From Serripes groenlandicus (Eukaryota; Mollusca; Bivalvia; Cardiida; Cardiidae): a DNA stretch of 64,000 nucleotides. Position numbers and translations under genes: made by a program. The stretch's first letter is position 1; each line of letters begins with the position of its first letter. Positions 48,101 to 54,100 of the stretch are shown in pieces. Location of the stretch: positions 55,270,782 through 55,334,781 of the forward strand of contig JASEVX010000013.1 of NCBI GenBank assembly GCA_031761405.1. Reading direction: 5' to 3'. The notes under the pieces were generated by a model. That model was not told the origin of the DNA. It saw only the letters and a list, made by a program, of their open reading frames with translations, and searched no databases.

Positions 48101-51100
48101 TCACTCCGATTCAATTTCAGTAAACATTTGGGGGAAAATAAATATTTTTTTTCAAAATTTTGCAGACGACAATATAGTAGACGAAAATAATTTAGCATGC
48201 AAAGAGTTAAACCTGTGCTAAAGACCACCTTGGAACAGCAATTCTGTGTCCATAGCGACCATACTTTTAGTTTCCCAAATACTCATTTTCTGTATAAATT
48301 ACCCTGAAATTGTGAACAAAGATCTGATTGTTCACATCCTATTGGTGGTCTTTAAAGACAGGTTTGACTGTATAGTGTAATATCGACAAGTCTGGTGTAA
48401 AGTTATATTGTTTTATTGTATACCTGCACATTTTCCGGCACAAAAGCATGCAGATGGTCATGCGCATTTCAAACAGGATGGATTAAAATTACGTAAGTGA
48501 CTAGGTCAAATACAGTACCAAATATGGTAATGGTACGTCATTGAAATAAGATTTCATGTCATTCCAAATGCGTTAGTCGGACTTGATTCACATGCCATTC
48601 AAAATTTTAATTTATGTGTAAAATGTGTTATTTTGATTTTGAAAATATCAAAATTTGTTTATATTTTCTTTATACTGTCTTATCTGTTATACTAAGTCTA
48701 TAATAAAAGGAAAATTATGTTGCAAAAAGTGAACGATGGCTTTGTTTTGTCTCCTCGGGGCATGGTAAAATTGATATTTCTCTCGACCTTCAGTCTCGTG
48801 AGATATCAATTTTCCACGCCCCTCATAGACAATACCAAACCCAGTATCGTTACCGCAACATAATATTCCCTCTATATTTAACAGCCTGGGGACCAAGCCA
48901 AAGCAGTTGTGGCACAAGCTGTAAGGCATCTATCCAATTCTGTAATCCTGTATCATTACTGTGCAACATAATTTTACCTCTATATTTACCAGCCTGGGGA
49001 CCAAGCCAAAGCAGTCGTGGCACAAGCTGTAAGGCATCTACCCAATTCTGTAATCCTGTATCATTAATGTGCAACATAATTTTCCCTCTATATTTACCAG
49101 CCTGGGGACCAAGCCAAAGCAGTTGTGGCACAAGCTGTAAGGCATCTACCCAATTCTGTAATCCTGTATCATTACTGTGCAACATTATTTTACCTCTATA
49201 TTTACCAGCCTGGGGACCAAGCCAAAGCAGTTGTGGCACAAGCTGTAAGGCATCTACCCAATTATGTAATCCTGTATCATTACTGTGCAACATAATTTTA
49301 CCTCTATATTTACCAGCCTGGGGACCAAGCCAAAGCAGTTGTGGTACAAGCTGTAAGGCATCTACCCAATTATGTAATCCTGTATCATTACTGTGCAACA
49401 TAATATTCCCTCTATATTTACCAGCCTGGGAACCAAGCCAAAGCAGTTGTAGCACAAGCTGTAAGGCATCTACCCAATTCTGTAATCCTGTATCATTACT
49501 GTGCAACATTATATTCCCTCTATATTTACCAGCCTGGGGACCAAGCCAAAGCAGTTGTAGCACAAGCTGTAAGGCATCTACCCAATTATGTAATCCTGTA
49601 TCATTACTGTGCAACATAATATTCCCTCTATATTTACCAGCCTGGGGACCAAGCCAAAGCAGTTGTAGCACAAGCTGTAAGGCATCTCCCCAATTCTGTA
49701 ATCCTGTATCATTAATGTGCAACATAATATTCCCCAAGGCTCGCACTGTAGGTCGCCATTGTCGCCAAATGGCGATTATTTAATGAAGACGGCGATTATT
49801 TTGTTAATTTGGCGACGGAAAATGGCGATTATTTTATTTTGCAACTGGATAAAAAAAATCGTCTGCTAATTGCGTATGAGAGCATGAAAACACGTGTCAA
49901 TGAAGCGTAAACGACCTTGTTTATCTCAAGTGTCATACCCCGGTGTTAATTACAAGATTGATTGGCCGCGGGTCATCGCCTTATCAGTTAATCCTTGAGT
50001 GTGTGTAATACACTTCGAAGACTGTGAAACTTATCACCTTTCATTGTACATTTTAATCGCCCCAATTTAGAATGATAACACCTTAAATTAATTCCATGCC
50101 GATATAATTTGAGATGCATCCAATTTTTAAAAAAGATGGACATGTTTATTAAATTTAACAGATTTCTTTACCTTGCAAACAAAATGGCGGACGATTAAAA
50201 TTTACGCTGATCAATGTGGTTTCGATTTTCATGTATCATTGAAGTGGTTTTTAGACGTCGGTTGCAAAACAAATACGATAAAAATCAACTATTTAAACAC
50301 AGTCTTTGTTTTTGTTTAACTGGAAGGGTTTTCCGGAAATTAACTTTCACTTTGGTAATTATATGCAGACTGTTTCGTACCCTTTCCGTTTCGTAACATA
50401 AATAAATTGACTTGGACAAAGACAGTGATCATGATAGGGACTGAGTGTTTAGATTTCCAAGATGAACTTATGAATTTCAATAGCCTTATAATGTATAGTT
50501 GAGATTAAAAGTATCCCTCTGAATCATATTTATAAAAAAAAAATTGTTTTACTTTTTTCTTGTTACATATGTTTCGGTCTTACAGATCTTTATGTTTTGT
50601 CAGAACCAATTGTCTGACACCTTTTCATTTAATTTTGCAAATCTGAACAGGATTCACTAATGACTAAACATTTTGGAAGGTGTGTCAGATTTAACTAAGC
50701 AATTAAACAAGTGTATGTACCTTATTGCTATTTTGACTAACTGATAATGTCACATGAAAAGTTTGTATACAGGGGTAATAAATATATATGAAATAAAAAT
50801 GCTGACAAAGCATTATCAAGCGTTTATTTTATTGTACCACATTCACGCGCTTCACACGTTAGCTTTGGCTTTGGCTATTAATTTTTTTCATGAAAAAATA
50901 ATGGCTATTATTTTGTCTAGGCCAGAGCCAGCCCTGATTCCCTCTATATTTACCAGCCTGGGGACCAAGCCAAAGCAGTTGTAGCACAAGCTGTAAGGCA
51001 TCTCCCCAATTCTGTAATCCTGTATCATTACTGTGCAACATAATATTCCCTCTATATTTACCAGCCTGGGGACCAAGCCAAAGAAGTTGTAGCACAAGCT

Positions 51101-54100
51101 GTAAGGCATCTACCCAATTCTGTAATCCTGTATCATTACTGTGCAACATAATTTTACCTCTATATTTACCAGCCTGGGGACCAAGCCAAAGCAGTTGTAG
51201 CACAAGCTGTAAGGCATCTACCCAATTCTGTAAGGACATGGAGTAAGGCAGCTGAACTGGAACCAGAATTGAAGGCAAAAAAAAAAGTCTACAGAAAAGG
51301 TCTGTCTGATATTACACTCTTTTATATTATTGGCCTTCCTAAACTAAAGCTAGTGTGGTTAGTGTGGGGGAATTTGGGATCGGGCATCACAGGTTTGATC
51401 CCCAGTCGTCATGTCATGACATACTGCCCTTGGATAGTTGATTGTTTGGTGTTTTACGCTTTCAAAAAAATTTCAGTTATATCACTGCGTTTCATGGGTA
51501 AGTTACCGGTACTACTGGTCCCTTTATCCTGACACCAGCCAGTCAGTCGTATTGCTAATCTACCAACCCTGAGCGCTAAGCCATTTCTACCATTTTTAAA
51601 GTCTTTGTCCAAGGGCTTCGGTGGTGTAGTGGTAAAACACCACCGAAGCCCTGTTACTAGTGTCTATATGAGGGAAAGGGTTAATCAATGAAAAGAGTTG
51701 AAAACATTGTGTCAAAAGGAGAAATTGCTCATGATGAGCAATTTCTCCTTTTGCCCCAATATTTCCAAAAGTCTTCTGCTGCAGAATGTTAAATGCTTCT
51801 ACATGTGGGAAAGGGTTGAGAAACGTCTTATGTCTGTATAAGGGTTAAACCTTTTCTCATTTGCAAACACGATCTGACGCGTCTGCAGCAGATGACTTTT
51901 GACTACATTGTGGCAAAAGGCGAAACTGCTCATGATGAGCAATTTCTCCATTTGCCACCATGTGATCAACTCTATTTAATAATTGAACTCTCTTTTTTGG
52001 AAATTTTCCAATTTTTGCCAGAATGATTTCAAAGTCGTCTGCTGCAGAATGGTTAAATAATCACAGCTGTGTGTGTGTGTGTGTGTGTGTTGATCTGGTT
52101 TTTCCTCGTTCAAATCCTGAGGGGGCATACAGGAATAACCTTGACTATCTGTTAGTCAGTCAACATATCTGCATTATAGCTCTTGAATGTTGTGGAGCAA
52201 ACTTCTTTAACAACTTTCTTTGAAGTTTTAATAAAATTTGTGAACCCCTTCCCACATACAACTAATGTGCTTCAGACGATTTAAAAACATTTAGTCATTG
52301 AATAAAGTTTTAAACATTGTGACAAAAGAATAAAATTTGTCACAATTTGTTTTCAAGTTTTGTCTGCTGCAGAAGCATCTGTATGTGGGAAAGGGTTAAG
52401 GAATTTGACCATTCAGATATGAAAACATTTTATGTGTTCCATGCCTATACTTATTAGTCCCCTACCGGCGTGCCGAAGGGGACTCTTAGGTTTGCAGTCC
52501 GTCCGTCAGTCCATCTGTCAGTCAGTCAGTCAGTCCGGCAAATCAGTTTTCCGCACTTTTTTTCTACATGCTTTGAGGTATTGAGCTGAAATTTTGTATA
52601 TGCCTTTGTAATCATGTGTCACAGATCAAGTTCGCGTTTCCTGGGATTTCGTCAATTTTTTAATGAGTTATGCCCCTTTTTGGACTTAGAATATTCGTTT
52701 TCCGCATTTTTTTTCTACATGCTTTGAGGTATTGAGCTGAAATTTTGTATATGGCTTTGTAATCATGTGTCACAGATCAAGTTCGCGTTTCATGGGATTT
52801 CGTCAATTTTTTTATGAGTTATGCCCCTTTTTGGACTTAGAATATTAATAAGTCAAAACGTGCAAACCGGTAGGGGATTATGGTATTGCTTGCAATCCTA
52901 CAGTTACTTGTTTTAATAATAATGTTGCTATTTCAGCTCTGGAGGCCATTCCTAATTCGGTTCGATTATGGAAGCTGTCCGTTGAATTAGAAGACGAGGA
53001 AGACGCCCGGATCATGTTAAGTCGGGCTGTAGAGTGTTGTCCTACGAGTGTAGAGGTGGGTTTGTTTGTTCCTATACCTTCTATCCATTATCTGATGCAG
53101 ACAACTTTTGGGAACATTTTGAAAAAAGGAGAAACTGACTATTTCTCCTTTTGCTGCAATGTTTTCAACTCTGTATCAAAGTTATACTTAAGATTTTCCA
53201 TATATTATATTTTCTTTCTTAGAATGTTTTAAAATGCAGACGGCAATTTAAATATCATATCAGGCTTGTCAGAAATGTGATTTTCAAACTCCTCAAAGTG
53301 AATGCATGAACAACTAAGGTTTGTCATAGTGAATGCATGAACAACTAAGGTTCGTCATAGTCAATACAGGAAAAGCTAAGGTTTGTCATAGTGAATGCAT
53401 GAATAACTAAGGTTCCTCATAGTGAATGCATGAAAAACTAAGGTAATACCTGGGCAAAAATCAGAGACATTACTAGTATTAGAAACCCAATCTCATTAAA
53501 ACCAGACCTTAACTTGGCTGTAGTAGCGAATCCTTGTATAGATGTGATGACTGCCTATTACAGGTCATTTGAGATTGACCTTTGCATCAACCAATCAAAT
53601 TGTTACCTTCAATTGTTAGGTATCAATAGGGAAGATAACCTATATAAATAAACAAGATAGAGAAGCGGTGATGGTCGAGTGTTCAGATTGATTAGTTAAC
53701 ATTTAATAACAGGACCTAGCGCTGGCTATATCATGAAATATCATTGGACAGAAAAACGAGGACCAGTTTATTGAAAATGAACATGTATATGGTCAATTCG
53801 AGACGACATTTCATGGGGTGTGACAAGCGTCATTTGTCTTCCACCAATGGACTATCAGTCTATGTGGAAAAGCAGCCAGTTGCTTGGAAAGAATGTTGTA
53901 TGAAGTACTGGTGTGAGAAATATATGAGTAGCCTGTAGGTGAACTGGCCGTCGTGATATGACTGAAAACGGCGTTAACCCTAAAAAAAATCAATCATTGG
54001 GTGTTGTCAGATCCAATATACTCACAGCAAGAAAAAGTCATATGAGATAAATGGTTAATCCTTTATCACATACATTTGCTGTTGCAAAAGGGTAAATTGA

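Follow-up and report, generated by a model that had tools for sequence, protein, structure and literature searches.

The window analysed here, a 64,000-nucleotide stretch of the bivalve Serripes groenlandicus (contig JASEVX010000013.1 of assembly GCA_031761405.1, forward strand positions 55,270,782 to 55,334,781), carries the core spliceosome gene PRPF6 and, directly upstream of its exon 10, a tandem array of partial copies of the exon 10 acceptor region. A tblastn search with a human PRPF6 sequence as query recovered the exons in order on the + strand, and the 18-exon model has GT-AG borders, consistent phases and 703 codons without a stop, the 17 introns in the window ranging from 486 to 3566 nt. 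The top database protein was a PRPF6-like protein of Mercenaria mercenaria (90% identity, 100% of the query covered); search, exon model and protein match thus bear out the first-pass annotation of this DNA, which had placed the array at exon 10 of PRPF6. The exon 10 product aligns by sequence with solved human PRPF6 structures at residues 354–395. The protein search gave 3,547 matches among 7,994 candidates scored, and among the first 20 of the 120 listed, 19 of the relatives' predicted PRPF6 proteins are of ordinary length (924–933 aa), while the remaining one, P0003, has 916 aa and a different N terminus; no length gain was found among these 20. The features discussed below are the following:

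33014..62903, + strand: PRPF6 gene, 18 exons in the window, C-terminal exons beyond it (tblastn, exon model, protein match)
47594..47664, + strand: single partial copy of the exon 9 head plus linker, a 71-bp unit, upstream of the real exon 9
47665..47857, + strand: real exon 9 (exon model)
48838..49734, + strand: first array block, partial copies 1–8 with linkers, left homology edge near 48838 (placed by eye)
49735..50936, + strand: 1,202-bp insert between copies 8 and 9
50937..51172, + strand: second array block, partial copies 9 and 10 with linkers
51173..51299, + strand: real and complete exon 10, 127 nt, phase 0, donor AAG/GTCTGT (exon model)

The array, which is observed directly, consists of ten tandem partial copies, each with the intron 9 acceptor and the first 57 nt of exon 10, followed by the complete authentic exon 10, which is retained at one array end with the PRPF6 frame open. 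The AG is kept at all eleven acceptors (48885, 48993, 49101, 49209, 49317, 49425, 49533, 49641, 50957, 51065 and 51173), and each partial copy has an open 57-nt head of 19 codons that runs into GTAATC, compared with GTAAGG at the matching position of the real exon; six of the ten heads differ from it in amino acids. The first-pass annotation had described both this arrangement and the 19 in-frame codons before GTAATC, and was right in each. The regular 108-bp spacing with 51-nt gaps that it also reported holds for nine of the ten GT..AG gaps and breaks down where the insert parts copies 8 and 9, leaving a gap of 1,259 nt. Since the nine complete 108-bp units share 94.4–98.1% identity over 36 pairs and the array reaches Tandem Repeats Finder (TRF) scores of 1599 and 566, a chance pattern can be dismissed.

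Comparable repeats have been described in lancelets, where so-called mirages, i.e., length-unstable tandem repeats of 10–160 bp across exon-intron boundaries, occur in Adh3, the globin genes BflGb6 and BflGb9, and TnC, with three or six units in BflGb6 depending on the haplotype (PMC3087553). The Adh3 data and globin reverse transcription PCR presented there suggest that regular splicing is undisturbed by mirages, and the imperfect repeats of 60 and 108 bp that cover splice sites in lancelet PGBD5 were likened to them (PMC3902484). Like these, the PRPF6 array is built from tandem copies of an intron 3' end and the 5' part of an exon, with AG/GT borders in many lancelet units and in all ten PRPF6 copies, and judged by its sequence it has the structural features of a mirage minisatellite. 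It differs in lying in a mollusc and in a core spliceosome gene, in having ten extra copies, in affecting two adjacent exons and in containing a transposon-like insert. A mollusc mirage case was not found in the open-licence literature, which misses most subscription papers, by searches that were mostly not mollusc-directed.

The insert is likewise a direct observation. It is flanked on both sides by the 6-bp repeat ATTCCC (49729–49734 and 50937–50942), and its ends agree as inverted repeats at 11 of 14 terminal bases, with a chance probability of 4e-5 for a comparison chosen after looking. A local alignment of the insert ends over 80 nt scored 31 and stays inside the range of shuffled sequences (mean 19.8, maximum 41.5). 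The insert is possibly a non-autonomous DNA transposon. Both insert and units bear on the concern that the array is an assembly artefact, false as a whole or wrong in its copy number. Tandem arrays are error-prone in assemblies, which counts in favour of this concern, and an assembly gap of 200 N lies elsewhere in the window, at 27054–27253. Against it, the units carry distinct substitutions and a single insert with 6-bp flanking repeats sits inside the array; these argue against a false array. We regard the artefact reading as very unlikely, although the exact number of copies could possibly be wrong.

The divergence among the units, also directly observed, was used to look for constraint. 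Diversity was calculated over nine units, with the real unit included and the first copy and the post-insert copy left out, as their upstream parts differ, and was about equal in the linker (0.034) and the head (0.038). Over all eleven copies, the heads show eight changes, three synonymous and five amino-acid changing (D3N, A7E, A10V, P17S and S19Y); with an expected synonymous fraction of 0.285, the probability of at least three synonymous changes among eight is 0.41. Coding constraint on the copies was accordingly not found in this mix of synonymous and nonsynonymous changes over 11 copies, a comparison in which ten short units give little power. None of the four variable linker columns of the nine units falls within the last 16 intron bases (P 0.21), so that constraint on the splice tracts was not found either, again at low power, and the first copy, outside the nine-unit set, does vary in its acceptor stretch (AACAG). 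In lancelet mirages, concerted evolution acts within the array and leaves out the edge units (PMC3087553). The PRPF6 variants are arranged in blocks, with GTG in copies 1–5 and GTA in copies 6–11; the mean difference of the first unit is 4.4, equalled by unit 5, and copies 8 and 9 are the sole pair without any difference across the 77 nt compared. A 309-aa open reading frame (ORF) on the minus strand across the array had no protein match at E 0.001 among 7,997 candidates, which is weak evidence in that such ORFs are rarely predicted. Taken from these comparisons, the copies probably drift without selection, i.e., neutrally.

A functional role of the copies could be imagined on two levels. The first is the use of the internal GTs, by which, as proposed in the first-pass annotation, each copy would become a 57-nt phase-0 microexon adding 19 residues (a HAT half-repeat); the linkers would then be nascent introns. 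The heads are indeed in frame and the GT..AG borders present in all ten copies, and the literature offers parallels. For lancelet globins, it was proposed that recruitment of a mirage unit as an authentic exon can create an additional intron (PMC3087553). Introns are recognised to arise by tandem duplication (PMC3443670), and in human paralogs they may form from internal repeats located where exons meet introns (PMC2812944). In a potato RdRp gene, a boundary-spanning duplication gave rise to a new intron using a cryptic GTAAG donor, supported by 106 RNA-seq reads (PMC4974935). The potato and PRPF6 cases are alike in that the duplication crosses an intron-exon boundary and the duplicated exon part contains a GT. 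However, the PRPF6 copies number ten and offer GTAAT, as against GTAAG in potato and in the real exon 10, and they are known from DNA alone, whereas the potato intron has RNA-seq support.

By score, the internal donors are weak. In all ten copies, pairing of the donor (TCT or TAT before GTAATC) to the 5' end of U1 yields -1.4 kcal/mol, compared with -3.3 to -11.4 kcal/mol for all 18 real PRPF6 donors. On a human donor matrix, the copies score 0.44 (seven of ten) or 2.64 (three of ten) and the real donors 4.39–10.26. The small matrix built from the gene itself gives -2.64 or -1.17 for the copies and, with each left out in turn, -1.93 to 11.05 for the real donors, among which one, that of exon 4 (-1.93), is as low as the copies. 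Even the GTAAGG within the real exon 10 would be a better cryptic donor (4.56 on the human matrix, -4.8 kcal/mol). The combination of a good new donor with a good new acceptor, as looked for in intron gain, was by these scores not found in any of the ten copies. Because the internal donors are predicted to be weak and nine of the ten would-be introns measure 51 nt, compared with 486–3566 nt elsewhere in the gene, 57-nt microexons appear unlikely and the proposal was rejected on donor strength and intron length. The lack of a synonymous bias, with five amino-acid changes having drifted in, points the same way, and we consider the use of the copies as microexons extremely improbable.

The second level is the use of the acceptors only. 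Use of any of the ten copied acceptors would lead to a premature stop before the real donor, as read directly from the sequence; six end after ...VILYHYCAT, as the first-pass annotation had described for the units in general, two end earlier (...VILYH*) and two continue through the following copy's acceptor and meet their stop in that copy. Poison exons are, as a rule, conserved cassette exons. Those of splicing factors resemble the PRPF6 copies in that use would give a premature stop, but the copies lack a good donor of their own and show no visible constraint. A poison outcome that tunes PRPF6 had been suggested in the first-pass annotation. A poison-acceptor array would divert a share of PRPF6 transcripts to stops and decay, above all via 51065 and 50957, and thereby lower or auto-regulate the PRPF6 level, with the copy number acting as a dial. 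Consistent with such a role, the acceptors are intact in 10/10 copies, with scores that equal or exceed that of the real one, stops follow from all of them and from the exon 9 copy, and the two nearest copies would yield exons of ordinary size (235 nt to the real donor from 51065 and 343 nt from 50957); from the remaining copies, eight in number, the exons would have to measure 1,659–2,415 nt. On the other hand, constraint is not seen (with the little power noted above), the stop inside the unit is lost in two of ten copies, and lancelet mirages are reported or suggested to leave splicing undisturbed (PMC3087553; PMC3902484). In a literature search combining PRPF6 with "poison exon", neither term appeared in the titles or abstracts of the three papers listed. 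Tuning of PRPF6 by a poison outcome is consequently possible, but has no positive support, and we hold it to be unlikely. In an extended form of this idea, a copy-number-tunable decoy array of eleven near-identical 3' splice sites, plus the one before exon 9, would compete for a single exon of this core tri-snRNP gene and act as a length-polymorphic auto-regulatory sink, in which PRPF6 output is set by array length and spliceosome strength; this we deem decidedly unlikely. Leaky "poison" use of single copied acceptors, as judged from the sequence, is possible.

Exon 10 is not the only exon of PRPF6 with a duplicated boundary. A tandem copy of the acceptor and head of exon 9, absent from the first-pass annotation, lies upstream of that exon in the repeat at 47563–47702, and use of its acceptor would lead to a stop after ...VQITNNL. 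In a search of the window with all 18 exons and their 40-nt flanks (E 0.01 or better), only exons 9 and 10 have partial copies; the matches of exons 3 and 4 fall in flank repeats. When the seven tandem arrays with units of at least 24 bp (split or overlapping TRF rows merged; those below this unit size, at 33531, 33891, 42698, 52495, 59350 and 62609, dropped) were placed randomly, the probability of hitting exon boundaries of either kind at least twice was 0.107, and that of hitting at least two acceptors 0.034. With the four arrays of at least 60 bp, it was 0.070 for any boundary and 0.022 for two acceptors.

We consider it very probable that the array is a mirage-type minisatellite and a neutral part of intron 9; the tolerated noise that the first-pass annotation had named as its alternative is thus the best fit. 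Compared by eye, the sequence to the left of copy 1 can be aligned with the linker as far as an AA near 48838, and a plain tandem duplication with 2-bp micro-homology is therefore the probable first event. In this step, a segment of about 108 bp across the intron 9/exon 10 boundary would have been tandemly duplicated, probably at the AA micro-homology. Since the duplication would have been a plain one, the terminal GT of each head is best understood as belonging to the exon itself, where it is part of the V codon of S-V-R, and not as a designed border. Growth to ten extra copies could then have proceeded by tandem-repeat turnover, i.e., slippage or unequal exchange, before the transposon-like insert landed in the array, which would since have drifted neutrally as intron 9 sequence. 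Its tolerance could be explained by the last acceptor, which is still followed by the complete exon and is the only one located 127 nt from a usable donor.

As the copied acceptors score no lower than the real one, the choice of the 3' splice site must rest on context. According to a database of competing splice sites, the closest pair across the exon is favoured within large introns (PMC9225289), and by this rule 51173 would be favoured, with 51065 and 50957 as the likeliest leaks. Exon definition should hence promote joining of 47857 to 51173 with the partial copies skipped, and occasional use of a copy would lead to a premature stop and probably to nonsense-mediated decay. Decay can conceal newly gained introns that have weak sites and premature stops (PMC2809761). 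Several points weigh against this reading. The real acceptor has no strength advantage, scoring 1.37 compared with 1.37–3.61 for the copied ones, and the real exon 10 donor GTCTGT is only moderate (5.34 on the human matrix). Moreover, the same database describes an overall preference for upstream 3' sites, which is reduced under exon definition (PMC9225289). Finally, the acceptor-spanning duplications in the adjacent exons 9 and 10 represent a slight, post hoc excess over random placement; clustering of boundary duplications as a mechanism was not adopted, as the P values are post hoc.

Apart from its origin, the array adds a mollusc and a core spliceosome gene to the range of mirage repeats, which the papers cited describe for lancelets. 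It also represents a natural splice-site duplication experiment, in which eleven near-identical acceptors in near-equal local sequence share one good donor. Junction counts would tell whether donor proximity, transcription order or exon context decides the choice of the 3' splice site.

Further repeats were observed in the window. An array of an 85-bp unit (2.7 copies, 27827–28056) contains T-rich stretches as well as TTTTCAG, after which comes AGACTTTC; as no PRPF6 exon matched, it was rejected as a further PRPF6 acceptor array. A clean 40-bp minisatellite with 28 copies and 94% matches occupies 18860–19993. A motif of about 25 bp is dispersed on both strands (e.g., 37536–37563), with 25 listed matches to the downstream flank of exon 3, and is probably a short interspersed repeat. 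Intron 12 of PRPF6 harbours, on the gene's own strand, a LINE-like element (long interspersed nuclear element) with a 621-aa open frame at 54601–56466 (+) and an RVT_1 reverse transcriptase domain (E 4e-33).

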